Assembly (NCBI GenBank): GCA_013036095.1
Contig: JAAXCW010000006.1
Span: 1-64,000 of the forward strand
DNA: 64,000 nucleotides
From: Vulcanimicrobiota bacterium
GTDB taxonomy: Bacteria; Vulcanimicrobiota; Vulcanimicrobiia; Vulcanimicrobiales; Vulcanimicrobiaceae
Direction: 5' to 3'
A program made the translations under genes and the position numbers. This document shows positions 44,833-53,394 of this stretch, piece after piece. Numbering within the stretch: position 1 is the stretch's first letter; each line of letters starts with the position of its first letter. Under the pieces are notes generated by a model. It was given only the letters and a program-made list of their open reading frames with translations. It made no database searches and was not told the DNA's origin.

Positions 44833-45395
44833 CCGGCGGGATCGGATCCGGTAAGAGCGAGGTCGCGCGCTGCATGGAGACATTCGGCGCGTATGTTATC
44901 GATACCGATAAACTCGCGCGCGAAGCTGTGGCGCCCGGCAGCGACGCGCTGCGTGAGATCGCGCGCACGTGGCCGTCGGTCGTTCGCATGGGCGGCCTAA
45001 ACCGTCCGGCGCTCGCCGAGATCGTGTTTGCGGATCCAAGCGCGCGCGAACGGCTCAATGCGATCGTTCATCCGCACGTGCGCCGTTTGGCCGACGCTGC
45101 CGAAGCTTACGCCAAACCGGGACAGATCGTCGTGCAAGTCGTGCCGCTGTTGTTCGAAACCGGCTACGACGAGCGGTGCGACGCGTCGGTGGTCGTCATC
45201 GCGCCGGACAGCGAGCGTATCGCGCGCATCGCGCGCCGCGACAAGTTGAGCGAAGACCAAATTCGCGCCCGGATGGGCTCGCAAATCGATCCGGAGCAGG
45301 CTCGCTCGCGAGCAACATACGTTATCGAAAACGATGGAGATTTCGTTCAGCTCAAGGAACGCACGCGCGCCGTTTACGACGCGCTCTCCGGCTAA
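44817..45395 (+). CDS. coaE: Dephospho-CoA kinase, start codon non-canonical
   Basis: About 192 residues. The P-loop is LTGGIGSGKSEVA, followed by YVIDTDKLAREAVAPG, LFETGYDERCDASVVVIA and RRDKLSEDQIRARMGSQID, all standard for CoaE, which phosphorylates dephospho-CoA in the last CoA step. The P-loop lies upstream of the first in-frame ATG (44874). The frame opens after a stop at 44796-44798 and has no ATG, GTG or TTG before the P-loop. A strong AGGAGGG at 44804-44810 points to GTC 44817 (giving M/V-RVGLTGG) as start; CTG 44829, overlapping the S1 stop, would delete the first strand. Confidence 0.85.
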   Translation, partial: VRVGLTGGIGSGKSEVARCMETFGAYVIDTDKLAREAVAPGSDALREIARTWPSVVRMGGLNRPALAEIVFADPSARERLNAIVHPHVRRLADAAEAYAKPGQIVVQVVPLLFETGYDERCDASVVVIAPDSERIARIARRDKLSEDQIRARMGSQIDPEQARSRATYVIENDGDFVQLKERTRAVYDALSG

Positions 45396-45487
45396 AGCCT
45401 CGTCCCAACGGCCATTTTTCGTTTAACAAGCGGTCGAGTGGGTATTTAATCCGCGATACATTCCCAATCATTAAGGGGCTACACCAC

Positions 45488-45706
45488 ATGGCGATTCAAG
45501 ACCAAGCGCAAAATCCGGGCGGAGGCATGACTGTTCGGGAAGCAGGCAAGCGTGGCGGCGAACGCGTCAAGGCCAAGTACGGCACGGAGTTCTACGAGGC
45601 CATCGGACGTAAGGGCGGCGAGGCCACCAAAGAAAAGTACGGGCCTTCGTTCTATGAGGTCATAGGCCAAAAAGGCGGCCAAAAGCTCAAACGTAAGAGC
45701 TCGTAG
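45488..45706 (+). CDS. KGG-repeat stress protein, short copy
   Basis: 72 residues from ATG 45488. Units of about 20 residues of the form G-x2-FYE-x-IG-x-KGG-x5-K occur: GTEFYEAIGRKGGEATKEKY and GPSFYEVIGQKGGQKLKRK, after MTVREAGKRGGERVKAKY. This is the KGG/con-10 (general stress) repeat family: highly hydrophilic, disordered proteins linked to desiccation or stationary-phase survival. A longer paralogue follows 21 nt downstream. Confidence 0.85.
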   Translation: MAIQDQAQNPGGGMTVREAGKRGGERVKAKYGTEFYEAIGRKGGEATKEKYGPSFYEVIGQKGGQKLKRKSS

Positions 45707-45727
45707 CGGCTATTCTGCGGGCACCCC

Positions 45728-46039
45728 ATGGCAAAACCATACAAAGCCGACGACAAGCCGCCGGGTGGCGAGATGTCCGTGCGCGAGGCCGGCAAAAAGG
45801 GCGGTGACACCGTCCGCGACCGCTATGGCCCCGGGTTCTATGAGGCGATCGGGCGCAAGGGCGGACAAGCGACGCGTCAGCGCCACGGCGTAGAATTTTA
45901 CGAGTCGATCGGACAAAAAGGCGGCCGCGTCGTCAAGGAAAAATACGGCGCCGATTTTTACGAAGAGATCGGCCATAAGGGCGGCCAAAAAGTCAAACGG
46001 CTGATTGCCGAAGCGAAAAAGAAAAACAGCGGCGGTTAG
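45728..46039 (+). CDS. KGG-repeat stress protein, long copy
   Basis: 103 residues. Four KGG units: AGKKGGDTVRDRYGPGFYEA, IGRKGGQATRQRHGVEFYES, IGQKGGRVVKEKYGADFYEE and IGHKGGQKVKRLI. The spacing is 20 to 21 residues, so the gene contains roughly 63-bp imperfect direct repeats shared with the preceding gene. The pair probably arose by duplication and unequal repeat expansion. It ends 3 nt from the convergent lnt-lptC stop. Confidence 0.85.
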   Translation: MAKPYKADDKPPGGEMSVREAGKKGGDTVRDRYGPGFYEAIGRKGGQATRQRHGVEFYESIGQKGGRVVKEKYGADFYEEIGHKGGQKVKRLIAEAKKKNSGG

Positions 46040-46042
46040 AGA

Positions 46043-48118
46043 TTAGGGCGAGACGCCGCCGCTGACGCGGCCGAAATGAATCTCGCCGCTATTGAAGTTC
46101 ACGTTTATCGAAGAAACCCTTAACGTCTGGCCGCCGCTGCGCACGACGCTCGGATGCGGCAGCGTCAGTAGTTTTGGCGCATTGACCCATTGAATCAGAT
46201 CCGTATCGAACGAGCGCTCCGAGCTGGCATCTTGCGTTTGCGTAACGTGCACGTCGCCGGTCGCCGTGAAATCGAATGTCTGTGTATTTACCGAGACTTG
46301 TTCGGCGCGCACGCTGAGATAGGGTTTGCCGTTCTTATAAAGCACGCCGCGGCGTACGCCTTGGACGGTGGCGAGCACGCCGTCGGCGGACATCGCGGCA
46401 TGGTCGTATTCAAACATCCAGGACTTGGTGCTCATGCGGTTTCCCGTGACGCGTCCGCCGTGCAGCGTCAGGGGCGTCATGCCGTGCGGCGCCGCACCAG
46501 GTTCGTTGCCCGCCAAAACGACGCCGGCAATCACCCAAATCAGCGCGCCGGCACCTGCCAGCAACACGTAGAGTTTCCAGCGCGCCCCCGCTGGGCGCCA
46601 TTGCGGCGTACGCCACTGCACCGCGCGTACGCGCAATCTTCGGAGTGCGAGACTCCCCGCGTAAACAACCAGGAGCGCAATGCCCACCGGCGTCGGACCG
46701 ATACGCGCGAAGATCGAACCGGGCGGCGATCCGATCGTGCCCGCGACGATTGCCGGTTTATCCAAGGCCGTTCGCTGCGTCCACGATCCGTCGGGCGCGA
46801 TGATTCCGCTGATGCCGGTGGCGGCCGACTGTAAGACCCATTGGCCGTTTTCGATGGCGCGCATCTGCGCGATCTGCGCATGCTGATACGTGCCGGATGT
46901 TTCGCCGAACCATGCATCATCGGTCGATATCACTAAGAACTGCGCGCCGCGCGAGACCTGCGCGTGCACGAGGTCGGCAAAAGCCGATTCCCAACAAATC
47001 AGGGGAGCGAATGCGGCGCCGCCGGCCGGGATAATAGTGTCGTCTCCTCCGGCGGCAAAACGGCCGATGAGATCGGAGTCGGGCAGCCACTTGAGAAAGG
47101 GTTCGCCCGGAAAAGATTCGGTAAACGGAACAAGTTGGCGTTTTTCGTAGACTTGTGAGATATGTCCCGACGGTTGAAAGACGAAGAGCGCGTTGTAGTC
47201 TTTCGGGCCGCGCGCTTCCAAACTCCCGACCACAAGCGTCGCTTTCAAACTGTGCGCGAGCGCCGAAAAATCCGAGCGGACCATGGCCCGGACGCCGTTG
47301 GGATCGGAGGCGTTCAGATCGGTTGGAATCACGGTTTCAGGAAGCACGACGAGCTGCGCATGCAGCGGCTGCAGTTTGCGTGTCTGCGCGAGGTACGTGT
47401 TGACGGTCGGCCAAAACGCCTGCGGATTCCACTTGACCGTCTGCGCGATGTTGCCTTGCACCGCGCCCACGCGCAACAGCGGCACTCGAGAATTGTGGCG
47501 TGCCGGCCAGGCCGCAAAACAGAGCGCCCAGGCGGCGGCGACAACGACTACTGCGATCGCGAGCGGTCTCGGATCGCGGTTTGCCAGCGCCTGCGCGCCA
47601 TACGCTCCTAACAGCATGACGACGAACGTGATCCCGAACGCGCCGACGTATGGCGCAAATGCGATCAGCGGCGTAACGGTTTGCGAGTAGCCGATCTGCG
47701 CGAACGGCACGGCAAGCAATCCAATCGATCGGAGCCACTCGAAGACGGTGAACGCCGCCGCAGCTGCTGCGGGCGCCGCCCATGCCGGACCGAACCGTTC
47801 CGCGACGCGCGCGGCCACTGCGCTCGCAGCGAACGTCAGCCCCTCGACCAGCGCGGGAATCAGCACCACCGCGAATGCGAACGATCCGACGTAGCTGCCG
47901 ACCGTGTACGTGAACCAGGAAAAATTTATCGCGAAAAAGATCGTGCCGGCGAACCATCCGGCGAAGAAGGCGCGTTTCCAGGAGAGCCGTTGCCAAGCCC
48001 AGAACAGGCCCGCCGCCGCAAGCGGGGCGAGCCACGCCTGTCCCGCCTTGGGAAAAGCAAGTGCGAGCGCAACCGCGCTCAAAGCGGATACGATGACGGA
48101 GGTGAAGGTGCTACGCAA
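46043..48118 (-). CDS. lnt: Fusion of apolipoprotein N-acyltransferase with an LptC-like domain
   Basis: About 691 residues. The first 500 are Lnt: multiple N-terminal membrane helices, then the carbon-nitrogen hydrolase domain with Glu in VVLPETVIPTD, Lys in YEKRQLVPFTES and the Cys nucleophile in APLICWESAFADL. After the usual last helix comes an added membrane segment (LYVLLAGAGALIWVIAGVVL) and about 140 residues of beta-strands (SWMFEYDHAAMSADGVLATV, RAEQVSVNTQTFDFTATGDV, INVNFNSGEIHFGRVSGG) of the LptC/OstA periplasmic type. Lnt N-acylates lipoproteins; LptC links the LPS-export ABC to LptA. Start taken as TTG 48118; it overlaps a divergent gene's start. Confidence 0.85.
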   Translation of the reverse strand: MRSTFTSVIVSALSAVALALAFPKAGQAWLAPLAAAGLFWAWQRLSWKRAFFAGWFAGTIFFAINFSWFTYTVGSYVGSFAFAVVLIPALVEGLTFAASAVAARVAERFGPAWAAPAAAAAAFTVFEWLRSIGLLAVPFAQIGYSQTVTPLIAFAPYVGAFGITFVVMLLGAYGAQALANRDPRPLAIAVVVVAAAWALCFAAWPARHNSRVPLLRVGAVQGNIAQTVKWNPQAFWPTVNTYLAQTRKLQPLHAQLVVLPETVIPTDLNASDPNGVRAMVRSDFSALAHSLKATLVVGSLEARGPKDYNALFVFQPSGHISQVYEKRQLVPFTESFPGEPFLKWLPDSDLIGRFAAGGDDTIIPAGGAAFAPLICWESAFADLVHAQVSRGAQFLVISTDDAWFGETSGTYQHAQIAQMRAIENGQWVLQSAATGISGIIAPDGSWTQRTALDKPAIVAGTIGSPPGSIFARIGPTPVGIALLVVYAGSLALRRLRVRAVQWRTPQWRPAGARWKLYVLLAGAGALIWVIAGVVLAGNEPGAAPHGMTPLTLHGGRVTGNRMSTKSWMFEYDHAAMSADGVLATVQGVRRGVLYKNGKPYLSVRAEQVSVNTQTFDFTATGDVHVTQTQDASSERSFDTDLIQWVNAPKLLTLPHPSVVRSGGQTLRVSSINVNFNSGEIHFGRVSGGVSP

Positions 48119-48824
48119 AATGTTGTTCGTCGTCTCTGTCGCGGCGTTCACGTTTGCTGCCTGCGGCCGCCAAGTAACTCCCGACCGCGGTTCCGTGACG
48201 CCTTCGGGACTTCCGGCGGGTTTCATGCAGGTGAAGTTCACGACCGCTCAGGCTATGGATTTCACCAACGTCCAATACGTCATCATGTTCAACACGTCGA
48301 CGAGCGGCGGAATGCCCTATGCGAACGGCTACCAGACCAATTATGCGAACTATTGGTTTGCGATCGTCGTCGGCGGCAACGGCGTAACGTCTACGGTGCA
48401 AGTCGTGCAGTACGTGCGTCAGCCCGGGCTCGGCGGAGGCACGGTCGCTACGCCGCAGGTCATCCCGTATACTCCACAGCAGCTGCAATACAACCTCAAT
48501 AGCAACGGACAGAACACGCAGTTCACGGTGACGTTCGATCGCCGTCTCTTCAACGGCATTGTCGCGACGCCGAGTCCCGTGCCTGGCGCGAACCCGAAGC
48601 TCTGGTACGTCAACTGGTTTACGACGAACGCTTCCGGTCAACCGATCGACGCGCCCGGCATCGGCGGGCCGCAAGATCAGACGTTCACTTTTCCGACGTC
48701 GGGACTGCCCGGCATCGACATCTCGACATCGTTCGATCAGCAATTCAATGCGAACGCCGGCTGGCCGCAAGTCACGCCGCGCAGCGCGCAAATTGCCGGC
48801 GGCGAGGTCATCAACAGCCCGTAA
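48108..48824 (+). CDS. Lipoprotein of unknown function
   Basis: 238 residues from GTG 48108 (GGAGG at 48098-48102). Signal with lipobox FTFAAC. The mature part is Asn-, Gln- and Thr-rich and beta-predicted: AQAMDFTNVQYVIMFNTSTS, NYWFAIVVGGNGVTSTVQVV and KLWYVNWFTTNASGQP, without known motifs. Its 5' end overlaps the 5' end of the divergent lnt-lptC gene by about 11 bp, and it ends head-on to the metallothionein stop. The envelope setting suggests an outer-membrane or surface protein, not more. Confidence 0.65.
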   Translation: MLRKMLFVVSVAAFTFAACGRQVTPDRGSVTPSGLPAGFMQVKFTTAQAMDFTNVQYVIMFNTSTSGGMPYANGYQTNYANYWFAIVVGGNGVTSTVQVVQYVRQPGLGGGTVATPQVIPYTPQQLQYNLNSNGQNTQFTVTFDRRLFNGIVATPSPVPGANPKLWYVNWFTTNASGQPIDAPGIGGPQDQTFTFPTSGLPGIDISTSFDQQFNANAGWPQVTPRSAQIAGGEVINSP

Positions 48825-48986
48825 TTACGGCACGTCGCAAGGCGGGTGCCCGCACTTGCACGCCTCGGACTCAATCCCTCCGGCCTCGTCGTCTTTGCAA
48901 ACGGGGCTGCAATACTCTTCGGTCTCTATCTCGGCCGTCAGCGTACAATTGCACAAATCGTGCGCGCACTCAATAGTCTGTTGCAT
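48825..48986 (-). CDS. Metallothionein (SmtA/BmtA type)
   Basis: 53 residues, too short for most ORF screens. It encodes eight Cys and two His in the cyanobacterial SmtA layout: CAHDLCNCTL at the start, YCSPVCKDD in the middle and ACKCGHPPCD at the end, parallel to SmtA's C-x2-C-x-C, YCS-x2-C and CGH-x2-C blocks. Such proteins bind a Zn4 or Cd/Cu cluster for metal storage and detoxification. The ATG is 23 nt after the lptD stop on the same strand, and the gene ends against the convergent lipoprotein stop. No clear SD is visible, so it probably relies on read-through from lptD. Confidence 0.88.
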   Translation of the reverse strand: MQQTIECAHDLCNCTLTAEIETEEYCSPVCKDDEAGGIESEACKCGHPPCDVP

Positions 48987-49009
48987 GCAGCCACTATACC
49001 CATGTTGCC

Positions 49010-52000
49010 CTAGAAGTTGAAGCTGGTCGGAATGATCGAGCCGGTCGTGTTCAAGCCGAAGCTCGCGCCACGTGACGGGAAGGCGAGCAGGTTGAGTGTG
49101 AGATTCACTTGCTTGGCGGCTTGATTGTATTGGAGCTGGATTTGATAGCAGTCACCGATGATGCGGCTCCAATAGATGCTCTTGTTGATGATCCGGCCTT
49201 TGTTCTTCCAGTCGATGTCGCCGATAAACTGCAGCGTCGAACCGTTTCCGAACGGCGTCGAGAACTGCAGGTTTGTCGTGAAGAAACCGTTGCCCGGACC
49301 GGGAATGAACGATCCCGCGAGTGAGACGTACGAGCGGCGCGACGGATGCACCGCTAACTGATACTGCACCGGCTGAGCTGCGCGATTGAACGCGGTGCTG
49401 AAACTGAGCGTCAGGTTGTAAAAGTCGCTGTTGAAGAACCGCAAGATGTCGGCCGCGCTCTTATAGTTGAACGTCGGCTGCTGGTCGAGCGTGCTGAACG
49501 GCACAAATGCCGGCCCGTTGTAATTCGTTTCGTTGTAAGTGATCGCGTTGAGGGCGTGGCGTCCGATCGGCGTCGACATCGTCGCCGTCTGCTCGATGCT
49601 GGCTTTCATATCGCCCGTGCCGTACGCGAACTGGTGCACCTTCACCCCGGCGCTGATGTCGCTGCCTAAGACGTGGTAGAGCGCCGGACCAAAATTGAAA
49701 TACAAGTCTGCGCGTGAAGTCGAGAGCGGAGTCTGCGGCTCGTTGTAGTTTCCAATCGTGAACGAGGATGTGATCGGAATGATGAAGCGCTTCAGGAAAC
49801 TGTACGGATGAATTTCGAGTTCGGGCTCTTTGTTTAAGCCGTAAGGAATGCGAGCGAAAGCCTTGTCATACCTTAGCGTATAAGCCGCGAGTTTGTTGCT
49901 CCACTGCAAGAGATCGCTAAATGAACCCGCCGAATTACTGCTCAGGTTGTTGGGCCCATAATTCGTTCGCGCCGAACTGAGGTTGACGCTGAGGCTATTC
50001 TGCGTGACCGGGCCGAAAGCGCGTGATTCGGTGAACCCAAAATTGTCGGTTGCCGACAGCGTGGTAATGCTGGTGTGCGCGAACGTATAATTTTGCTGTG
50101 CGCGCACGCCGGTGTGGACAATGGACGCGCTGATGCTTTCGTTGGGCGGAATGTTTATGAGTGGACCGAAGTTGCTGGTGTAGGCGAAACCAAAGCGCGC
50201 ACGAAGCGCCTGCGAGAAATTCTCGGCATCTTGCGCATTGAGGTTGTTCTGGCCGTGAAAACGGTAAAAGTCAACTGAGGATTGGCGTCTCCCATTCTGT
50301 TTGGTGAGGAAAGCCGTGTAGCCTAGGCCGAAACCCTGTTTAGTGTAATATTCCAGCCGGTAGTAACCGTAAAAATATTGGTCGCTCCCGAATCCGACCT
50401 TTGCCTTGATGTAAAATCCCTGATATGAATTGTATCCGACTTCGGGAAAAAACGACGGACGCTGGCGTTCGTCTTGGATGCTGCGCAGCGGAATGATCAG
50501 TTTGGGCAGATAGAAAACGGCGGCGGCCCCCAGGAACAGCACGGCTTTACTGATGACCATCCGGTCGCCGGGATAGATGTCGATGGTACGTCCGGTGATG
50601 TGGTATCCCGCGCGCGGACGTTCGCACGTCGTGACGTTCGCGTAGTCGCCGTGCGAGACGCCGTGTTCGTCGGCCTTCAAATCTTTCGCGCTGAAATAGA
50701 CGAGCCCGCGTTCGACGCCTTCCGAACTTTCGCCGCGGCCGTTAATCAACTCGGCGCGCTGCGCGACCGTGTCGAACAAGATCTCATCTCCGCGCAAGAT
50801 CGATGTATTCGTATTGTTGGCGATATACGGGTTGCCGCTGATCGTGACCGTTTTGAATCCGTCATAGTGCGCGCGATCGCCGACGAGCACTTCGTCTTGA
50901 TAAAAGATGTGCACGTTGCCGATCGCGTCACCGGGGGCGCCCGGTTTGTTGAAGTTCCCGACGAACCTGTCGGCCATCACTGCCATGAAGCCCGGGCGCA
51001 GGGTCGGGGCGACGATCGGCGCCGGTGTCGCGGAAGGCGTCGGCGAGCCGTTGGGCACGATCGAAGGCGGCGCGGAGCCGCGAATGAGGAAGACCGGTCC
51101 CGCGCTTGCTTTCGCACTCGGCACTGGCGTGGGGATCGGCGGCGGCGTCACTGCGCTCCCGCTTGGAATCGGCGTGGTGTAGAGGTGGCCGGGCGCTAAC
51201 GGCGCGTTCGGAACGGGAGCGCTGGAGCTCGGTGACGGCGCGGGCGTCGGCGTGACCTGCGCCACCAAATCGCTCGAGCGCAAAGCGCGCGACGCGCACG
51301 TGTTTGCATTGAGCAGTCCAAAGATCGCTTCCGATGACATCACGTTGCCGGCAGGCGGCGGCGCGGGCGAAGGTGCGGGAGCCGGCAGGGGAGAGGGTGT
51401 GAGCGACGGGAGCGGCGTGAGCAAAGGATGCGGCGCCGGCGCACGCGGCGCCGGAAGAATATGCGGCTGGGGCGGCGCGATCGCCGCAATCTTGCGCACG
51501 GAAGGCTTGCGCCCGGCGAGCGGTTTGGGCGACGTCGCCAGGAGCGGCTTTGCGCGTGCGATCGCAATTTTTGGGGGTGCGGCAGTTACGCGCACGACCG
51601 GCGCGGGCGTTACGTGTATGATCGGCGTTGGTGAAGGTGTTGCGGCGGGCGCCGATATCTCGGGCAGCGGCGTCGCCAACGCGATTTCGTCTGAACGCTG
51701 CACGTTTTGCATGCTGGCGCCGAGCCATCGCGCACCGCGTGTATCGGTTCGCAAGAGATTTGCGCCCTGCAAGTTCGCGTCGCGGAAATCGGCGAGCCGA
51801 AGGTTTGCCGTTTCCAGATTCGCGCCGGCGAGATCGGCGTGCCGCAAATGAGCGCGGTAAAAATTCGCGCCATAGAATAGCGCGCTTTGCAGGTTTGCCT
51901 GTTCCAAGCTCGCGCCTTGAAAGATTGCGTCTTGCGAGTCGGCCGACTGCAGATTGGCGCGCACCAGGATCGCGTTTTGGAGGATCGCGCTTTGTAAATG

Positions 52001-52231
52001 CGCGCCTTGCAAATTCGCTCCCGTGAGGTTCGCGCGCGTGAGGTTTGCGCCGCTCAAGTCGGCGCCTTGCAGATCCGCGTTGCGCAGGTCCGCGTTGCGG
52101 AAGTCGTGCTTCTTCAGGTTCGCGTTTTGAAAGTTGACGTCGCGCGCCGGCGCCGCAAGAGGAAAAAATCCTGCGACAAACGCGGCCAAGCAGATCGTTG
52201 CGCGAACGGAGCGCTTTTGCAAACCGAACAC
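49010..52231 (-). CDS. lptD: LptD/OstA-like outer-membrane protein with N-terminal pentapeptide repeats
   Basis: 1073 residues from GTG 52231 (AGGGCG upstream, 8 nt after the lptG stop). Signal peptide (ICLAAFVAGFFPLAAPA). Residues about 31-178 are some 29 pentapeptide repeats of the A(D/N)LxX type (ADLRNADLQGADLSGANLTR), predicting a quadrilateral beta-helix. A 230-residue Pro/Ala/Ser linker follows. Then comes an OstA-like domain from about 410 (HIFYQDEVLVGDRAHYDGFK) with TTCERPRAGYHITGRTIDIY, and a C-terminal barrel ending in aromatic-rich strands (TGSIIPTSFNF). LptD inserts LPS in the outer leaflet. The pentapeptide part is not known from standard LptD. Confidence 0.85.
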   Translation of the reverse strand: MFGLQKRSVRATICLAAFVAGFFPLAAPARDVNFQNANLKKHDFRNADLRNADLQGADLSGANLTRANLTGANLQGAHLQSAILQNAILVRANLQSADSQDAIFQGASLEQANLQSALFYGANFYRAHLRHADLAGANLETANLRLADFRDANLQGANLLRTDTRGARWLGASMQNVQRSDEIALATPLPEISAPAATPSPTPIIHVTPAPVVRVTAAPPKIAIARAKPLLATSPKPLAGRKPSVRKIAAIAPPQPHILPAPRAPAPHPLLTPLPSLTPSPLPAPAPSPAPPPAGNVMSSEAIFGLLNANTCASRALRSSDLVAQVTPTPAPSPSSSAPVPNAPLAPGHLYTTPIPSGSAVTPPPIPTPVPSAKASAGPVFLIRGSAPPSIVPNGSPTPSATPAPIVAPTLRPGFMAVMADRFVGNFNKPGAPGDAIGNVHIFYQDEVLVGDRAHYDGFKTVTISGNPYIANNTNTSILRGDEILFDTVAQRAELINGRGESSEGVERGLVYFSAKDLKADEHGVSHGDYANVTTCERPRAGYHITGRTIDIYPGDRMVISKAVLFLGAAAVFYLPKLIIPLRSIQDERQRPSFFPEVGYNSYQGFYIKAKVGFGSDQYFYGYYRLEYYTKQGFGLGYTAFLTKQNGRRQSSVDFYRFHGQNNLNAQDAENFSQALRARFGFAYTSNFGPLINIPPNESISASIVHTGVRAQQNYTFAHTSITTLSATDNFGFTESRAFGPVTQNSLSVNLSSARTNYGPNNLSSNSAGSFSDLLQWSNKLAAYTLRYDKAFARIPYGLNKEPELEIHPYSFLKRFIIPITSSFTIGNYNEPQTPLSTSRADLYFNFGPALYHVLGSDISAGVKVHQFAYGTGDMKASIEQTATMSTPIGRHALNAITYNETNYNGPAFVPFSTLDQQPTFNYKSAADILRFFNSDFYNLTLSFSTAFNRAAQPVQYQLAVHPSRRSYVSLAGSFIPGPGNGFFTTNLQFSTPFGNGSTLQFIGDIDWKNKGRIINKSIYWSRIIGDCYQIQLQYNQAAKQVNLTLNLLAFPSRGASFGLNTTGSIIPTSFNF

Positions 52232-52239
52232 GGAGCGCC

Positions 52240-53394
52240 CTAGTGTTCTTCGTACCAAAGCAACGCCAAGCCGCCCAGGCCGAAAACCAGGTTCGGAACC
52301 CAAGAGACGAGGTACGGGTTCACGCGTCCCGTGCTGCCGAACGCGGCCGCCGCTTCGGAGAGAATGAAATAGATGAAGAACGCGATGATCGACATTGCGA
52401 TGCCCATCATGCGCCCCTTCTTGCCGAACATGACGGCGAGCGGCAGCGCGAGCAGAACGGCCACCAGCGCCGAGAATGGAAACGCGAGCTTATCTGCGAG
52501 GTTGACTTGCAGATTCCCAAGCGCTTCGCCGCCCACGCCCTGCGCTTGCAATGCGCTCACCTGGTGGGAGAGCTGTTTGGAATCCATCGTCCACGCATCG
52601 CTGCTCGCACTGCTCAGGAACTGTGCAGCGTTCTCTCCCAGCGGCAGGCCGATGCTGGCTTCAGACTTGTCCACTTGCGACGTCATGTAACCTTGGCCGT
52701 TGTAAAATGTGATCACGACGCCGTTCAGGACGAGGGTTGGTCCGACGACGTGCGCGGTCTTGGCCTGAATCGTTTCGTTCCAGTAACCATTGCGCCCGGG
52801 TTTGAATATCTGCACGCCGACCATGGTACGGCCGTCAGCGAGCACGTGGTCGATGAAGAACTCGTTGTTGGTATCGGGATCCTTGCGGAAAAACTGCGAC
52901 TCGACCGGCAGCGCTCCGGTATGATAGATGATCTGATAGAACGTCCGCGTCGAGATTTCGACGGACTTAGGCGCGACGAATTCGTTCATCATCCATGAGA
53001 ACAGGAAGACGACGAATCCAAAAAGCAGCGGCGTAAGGCAGAGGCGCCACAGCGATGTGCCGGACGTGCGAATCGCGTTGATTTCGTTGTCGGCCATCAA
53101 CCGTCCGATGCCCAGCAGTGTCGCGAAAAGGGCCGCGAACGGAAAGGCCATCGGGATCGACTGCGGGATGCGGAACACGACGAACCGCAAGACGAGAAAG
53201 AACGGCGCGCCGTGCCCGATGACCTGATTTGCAGCCAAGAAGAAAATGTTGAAGCCCCAAAATAAAAAGAACGCCAGGAACGCGAAGACGAACGGCCCGA
53301 TGAACTCGCGCAAAATGTAAGCGTCGAGCAGCGGCAAGCGTAAGGAGCGGAGCAGGTTGATTGGCGCGGGGCGTGCTCCGGAAATGGAGGCCAT
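52240..53394 (-). CDS. lptG: LPS export permease LptG/LptF (YjgP/YjgQ family)
   Basis: 384 residues. Two N-terminal helix blocks (FVFAFLAFFLFWGFNIFFL, PMAFPFAALFATLLGIGRL) with the DNEINAIRTSG cytoplasmic loop typical of the family, a middle periplasmic jellyroll of about 150 residues, and the C-terminal helices (FSALVAVLLALPLAVMFG, GIAMSIIAFFIYFILSEA). It forms the channel of the LPS extractor with LptB. Only one LptF/G-type gene is visible. It lies 8 nt before the lptD-like gene and 15 nt after the transglycosylase gene. Confidence 0.92.
   Translation of the reverse strand: MASISGARPAPINLLRSLRLPLLDAYILREFIGPFVFAFLAFFLFWGFNIFFLAANQVIGHGAPFFLVLRFVVFRIPQSIPMAFPFAALFATLLGIGRLMADNEINAIRTSGTSLWRLCLTPLLFGFVVFLFSWMMNEFVAPKSVEISTRTFYQIIYHTGALPVESQFFRKDPDTNNEFFIDHVLADGRTMVGVQIFKPGRNGYWNETIQAKTAHVVGPTLVLNGVVITFYNGQGYMTSQVDKSEASIGLPLGENAAQFLSSASSDAWTMDSKQLSHQVSALQAQGVGGEALGNLQVNLADKLAFPFSALVAVLLALPLAVMFGKKGRMMGIAMSIIAFFIYFILSEAAAAFGSTGRVNPYLVSWVPNLVFGLGGLALLWYEEH

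Follow-up and report, generated by a model that had tools for sequence, protein, structure and literature searches.

Introduction

Among described proteins, those closest to the one reported here are the cyanobacterial metallothionein SmtA of Synechococcus elongatus (1jjd) and the metallothioneins of Pseudomonas. In the cyanobacterial smt operon the gene for SmtA is adjoined by the divergent smtB, which encodes an ArsR-family repressor, and the zinc-finger site of SmtA is usually given as C9, C14, C32 and C36. Its metal core is Zn4Cys9His2 (PMC10119931). In the Pseudomonas metallothioneins the first C-x-C is retained and the tail is disordered (PMC7387436), and in both respects they are unlike the family described below. 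Here we examine a short gene in the window, as we call the whole 64,000-nucleotide stretch of DNA analysed. Its product appears to be a divergent SmtA-like metallothionein, a distant relative of the cyanobacterial protein, and is probably metal-binding.

A small conserved gene

The gene lies on the minus strand between two larger neighbours:

48825..48986, minus strand: metallothionein-like gene, 53 aa, ATG start, TAA stop, C-x4-C-x-C / YC-x3-C / C-x-C-G-H-x2-C
49010..52303, minus strand: LptD-like gene with N-terminal pentapeptide repeats, the upstream neighbour of the metallothionein-like gene
48120..48824, plus strand: convergent lipoprotein-like gene, no Pfam or NCBIfam family, 5' end approximate

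Translation of 48825-48986 on the minus strand gives MQQTIECAHDLCNCTLTAEIETEEYCSPVCKDDEAGGIESEACKCGHPPCDVP followed by the stop. The initial annotation had described it correctly as a 53-residue ORF with 8 Cys and 2 His, and the distance of 23 nt that it gave to the lptD-like ORF (which ends at 49010) is also right, the gap being 48987-49009. On the other side there is no gap at all: the TAA occupies 48825-48827 and the convergent lipoprotein-like stop ends at 48824, leaving 0 nt between them.

Our genome-wide statistics come from a 464 kb sample of the same genome. Among its 1133 small ATG ORFs (40-80 aa), four have at least 8 Cys and only the ORF described here has the ordered Cys pattern, which puts it far from chance. 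Each of the six congeneric genomes that we searched contains the ORF, with 85-96% identity. Between congener pairs NG86 dN/dS is 0.02-0.08 where defined, indicating purifying selection, and variable sites among congeners fall 8, 5 and 38 at codon positions 1, 2 and 3 (third position 38/51). The 53-residue ORF is a real conserved gene.

Cysteine pattern and relationship to SmtA

In an alignment of 31 homologues, C7, C12, C14, C26, C30, C43, C45, H47 and C50 are invariant and G46 is nearly so. The initial annotation had made conservation of the Cys pattern in relatives a check on its reading, and all eight Cys are conserved. The family pattern is C-x4-C-x-C ... [YF]C-x3-C ... C-x-C-[GS]-H-x2-C, and position 9 is commonly His, otherwise Asn or Tyr. 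Small size (53 aa), eight invariant Cys, one aromatic residue and C-x-C motifs are sequence traits of the metallothionein functional class.

The initial annotation had also proposed an HMM check with PF02069 (Metallothio_Pro). The window protein scores 12.6 bits (E = 0.16) against a gathering cut-off of 33 bits, whereas 8 of the 31 homologues match weakly, at E ≤ 0.01 (best 2.7e-5). Searching the genomes of relatives with PF02069 returned members of the window protein's own family, none of them at or above the cut-off. Homology to PF02069 is nonetheless detectable at the level of the family, through these eight homologues and two profile comparisons. Searched against the PDB, the family profile retrieves four sequences, all metallothioneins, with SmtA 1jjd first (E = 0.0036). 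Profile-profile comparison with SmtA and two Pseudomonas sequences (PflQ2 MT) gives a probability of 95.7%, with E = 9.9e-9 for one comparison. The Pseudomonas metallothioneins (PflQ2 MT, 6gv6/6gv7/6grv) share with the family their N-terminal Cys layout and the Y-C-S-x2-C motif, and score more weakly than SmtA (E 0.18-0.29 for 6gv6, 6gv7 and 6grv in the PDB search). Given the phylum-wide Cys pattern, profiles that align with SmtA and the Pseudomonas proteins, and the return of no other PDB entry, the original reading of the protein as a metallothionein was largely right.

An AlphaFold2 model built without metal is compact (pLDDT 81), with strands at residues 2-6 and 15-19 and a helix at 28-36. 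Foldseek gave no significant match for this model, and VIA-align placed SmtA 1jjd in the top row, a weak match (Z 3.5, rmsd 3.0, 44 residues). Other candidate families were set aside. The Pfam Paramyxovirus V zinc-finger (E 0.012) is below its cut-off, and none of the 31 homologues reaches E ≤ 0.01 with it; RING and CCCH fingers, from a single-sequence phmmer search (E 0.24 and worse), were put down to composition.

The alignment with SmtA spans the whole protein. The two proteins share their length, a C-x4-C-x-C start, a Y-C-S-x2-C middle and a C-G-H-x2-C end. With SmtA numbered as the 56-residue protein, C7, C12, C14, C26, C30, C45, H47 and C50 correspond to SmtA C9, C14, C16, C32, C36, C47, H49 and C52, so that all four residues usually assigned to the SmtA zinc-finger site are kept. 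The SmtA arrangement claimed in the initial annotation holds for the approximate order, but SmtA has nine Cys to the eight of the window protein and the sets differ at three positions: SmtA Cys11 becomes H9 (or Asn or Tyr), Cys54 has no counterpart, and C43, two residues ahead of C-G-H, is new. SmtA His40 is not kept either, and the linker is acidic, unlike that of SmtA. Because the PF02069 cut-off is not reached and the Cys set is different, we file the protein as a variant rather than as a PF02069 member. The family can be regarded as a natural variation on the SmtA metal cluster in which the Cys are rearranged. No NCBIfam model matches the window protein, which, together with its score below the PF02069 cut-off, suggests that annotation probably misses metallothioneins in this uncultured soil phylum.

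Could the protein instead be an SmtA-like structural zinc finger, holding one or two Zn and serving a regulatory or protein-binding role rather than storing metal? We consider this rather unlikely. The putative core of C7, C12, C26 and C30 is invariant, but four more Cys and H47 are just as invariant, and they show the C-x-C spacing that clusters typically have. Among the weak structural rows are other small zinc fingers, for example YacG and the FCS finger, and YacG-type bacterial proteins possibly have a core similar to that of the window protein. YacG binds one Zn on four Cys, however, unlike a family with eight invariant Cys and one His, and in the PDB the sequence profile matches metallothioneins alone. 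The acidic linker offers a possible binding site for a partner, yet the non-Cys positions are mostly free to vary from genus to genus. That no metal-resistance genes were seen among the neighbours examined also fits a zinc finger.

Genomic position and neighbours

The initial annotation called the upstream neighbour lptD-like. HMM support for this is weak, with an NCBIfam LptD match at E = 0.0012 and no match to Pfam LptD/OstA for the protein encoded at 49010..52303, but a clear LptF/LptG gene precedes it, and together with the NCBIfam match this makes the label reasonable. The LptD-like protein carries pentapeptide repeats (PF00805, E 1.2e-33) ahead of its LptD-like part. This fusion is unusual; in the congener G002 the N-terminal region aligns in part only. 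On the far side of the metallothionein-like gene, a predicted Lnt gene (46043-48241, minus strand) and the divergent lipoprotein-like ORF (47904-48824, plus strand) overlap at their starts by 338 nt. Judging by the lipoprotein signal LRKMLFVVSVAAFTFAACG, the true start of the latter would be at ~48093-48120, and the part upstream of it a shadow ORF. Two adjacent small plus-strand genes (the C-terminal part of ORF 44969-45706, and 45728-46039) contain a repeated YGxxFYExIGxKGG within 45450-46039, and by eye these repeats look KGG stress-protein-like.

In 16 genera of the family, the metallothionein-like gene is found between the lptD-like and lipoprotein genes, which converge on this slot. It shares the strand of lptD in only three (the window's own genus, g1, with g9 and g20) and that of the lipoprotein gene, opposite lptD, in the other 13. 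In a tree built from LptD C-termini, two independent changes are required for the orientation on the lptD strand, forced by well-supported branches. The slot is empty in twelve other genomes examined, five of which (G009, G022, G024, G029 and G036) have a strong homologue elsewhere with unrelated genes adjoining, and in the sister family of the order and in a more distant family the gene is found at unrelated sites. Within the genus, 4 of 7 congeners have an unrelated inserted stretch between lptD and the metallothionein-like gene. Co-directional linkage to lptD is thus not conserved, and the adjacency looks like chromosomal position rather than an operon. The locus shows clearly how a tiny gene can stay in one chromosomal slot while changing strand, and it is a warning that adjacency in a single genome should not be taken for operon function.

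An AT-rich hairpin occurs in the inserted stretch of G003, G005 and G006, with a variant in G004, and is not in the window. It may be a mobile element or a terminator:

L031:4931-4954: hairpin CAAAAAAACATGGANNTTTTTTTG, between lptD and the metallothionein-like gene
L032:4934-4957: the same hairpin, in the same position
L034:962-985: the same hairpin, in the same position

Unlike the SmtA gene, the window gene has no adjacent smtB. Five ArsR-type (HTH_5) matches were found in the genome, none of them on the window contig, so the arrangement is not that of an smt operon, and the neighbours examined of the out-of-slot copies include no recurring metal-homeostasis gene. Without an ArsR/SmtB gene on the contig or metal-handling neighbours, the genome gives no sign of metal regulation.

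A promoter-like element at fixed spacing

The gap to the LptD-like gene contains one further feature:

48987..49001, minus strand: promoter-like element GGGTATAGTGGCTGC, the 15 nt immediately before the ATG

The TA of this element begins exactly 12 nt ahead of the start codon, and the 15 nt before the window ATG contain no Shine-Dalgarno sequence. GGGTAT is at constant distance in 7 of 7 congeners, though the sequence just upstream is non-homologous. In the ~22 nt preceding each of 40 family starts, taken from 20 genera, we counted GGTA 21 times, with its T at -12 in 19 cases, at -13 in 2 and nowhere else, a count slightly biased by G105, G106 and G111, for which the start codon was chosen among alternatives after the motif was known. 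Half of the genera (10/20) have the element with TA at -12, and it is present for both gene orientations and for out-of-slot copies. In the 464 kb sample TANNNT or GGGTA at -12 shows a weak genome-wide excess. Sister-family members have Shine-Dalgarno-like sequences instead. Scans for sigma-70 promoters and terminators around the gap gave no match, and Rfam no element near the gene. The -12 spacing fits a -10 element for a transcript that starts at the ATG, and the element may therefore mark a leaderless mRNA; its fixed spacing suggests that the gene has its own promoter. Expression would then most likely be independent of lptD read-through.

These results bear on whether the protein acts with the Lpt proteins as an operon member, for instance by governing the metal or thiol state while LptD folds. 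The window alone might suggest so, with the gene co-directional and 23 nt downstream of the lptD-like gene, and the slot beside lptD is kept in many genera of the family. Such a role is very unlikely, however, given the opposite strand in most genera and the two independent flips, the twelve empty slots (five with the gene elsewhere), the insertions behind lptD in congeners, the gene's own promoter-like element and a sequence in which a signal peptide is not evident. The attachment to an LPS-transport operon proposed in the initial annotation is accordingly unsupported as a functional link.

Proposed function

We think it likely that the gene is independently transcribed and specifies a small SmtA-type metallothionein, of a divergent 8-Cys class, that buffers zinc in the cytosol. 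C7, C12, C26 and C30, the equivalents of the SmtA zinc-finger core, would hold one tightly bound structural zinc, while the other four Cys (C14, C43, C45 and C50), together with invariant H47 and the usually present H9, may form a small thiolate cluster that takes up additional Zn(II) or Cd(II). From a ligand set of eight Cys and one or two His, a total of about three metals per protein would be a reasonable expectation. We infer that this bound pool buffers cytosolic zinc, and that the gene is an independent transcription unit whose -10-type promoter would put the mRNA start at the ATG. That the protein is a Cu(I) metallothionein with a function like that of mycobacterial MymT is very unlikely: C-x-C thiolate motifs, which are present here, can hold Cu(I), but the SmtA-like layout points to zinc, with its invariant His in C-G-H that the zinc binder SmtA also has, and no search returned a copper metallothionein.

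The zinc-buffering reading can be extended, tentatively and with considerable doubt. The proteins might form an unnamed bacterial metallothionein class (eight Cys, acidic linker) that is old in Candidatus Eremiobacterota, leaderless, without an adjacent metal regulator and present in seven copies in some genomes, serving as a standing zinc buffer rather than as an inducible detoxifier.

Distribution

Judged by sequence searches, the 8-Cys class is widespread in Candidatus Eremiobacterota. A single-sequence search found a homologue in 36 of 60 relatives, and the 31-sequence profile a relative in 90 of 149 phylum genomes, the sister family and the more distant family among them. Beyond the phylum, convincing matches were found neither in plasmids, by tblastn with the window protein and two divergent members as queries, nor for the window protein against phages, nor for the 31-sequence family profile against viral contigs; an approximate consensus of similar proteins from other phyla matched nothing in plasmids. 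A literature search for metallothionein together with Eremiobacter gave no paper.

Copy number rises in the more distant family, to as many as seven metallothionein-like copies per genome. In the class relatives G044 and G049, seven copies occur in one genome, several of them with longer C-terminal tails. In family f2, L068 has a second metallothionein-like copy, flanked by thiC and by the gene for an ilvD-type dihydroxy-acid dehydratase, both of which encode Fe-S enzymes, and in L078 a second copy is found beside large genes whose sizes and order match those of L068.
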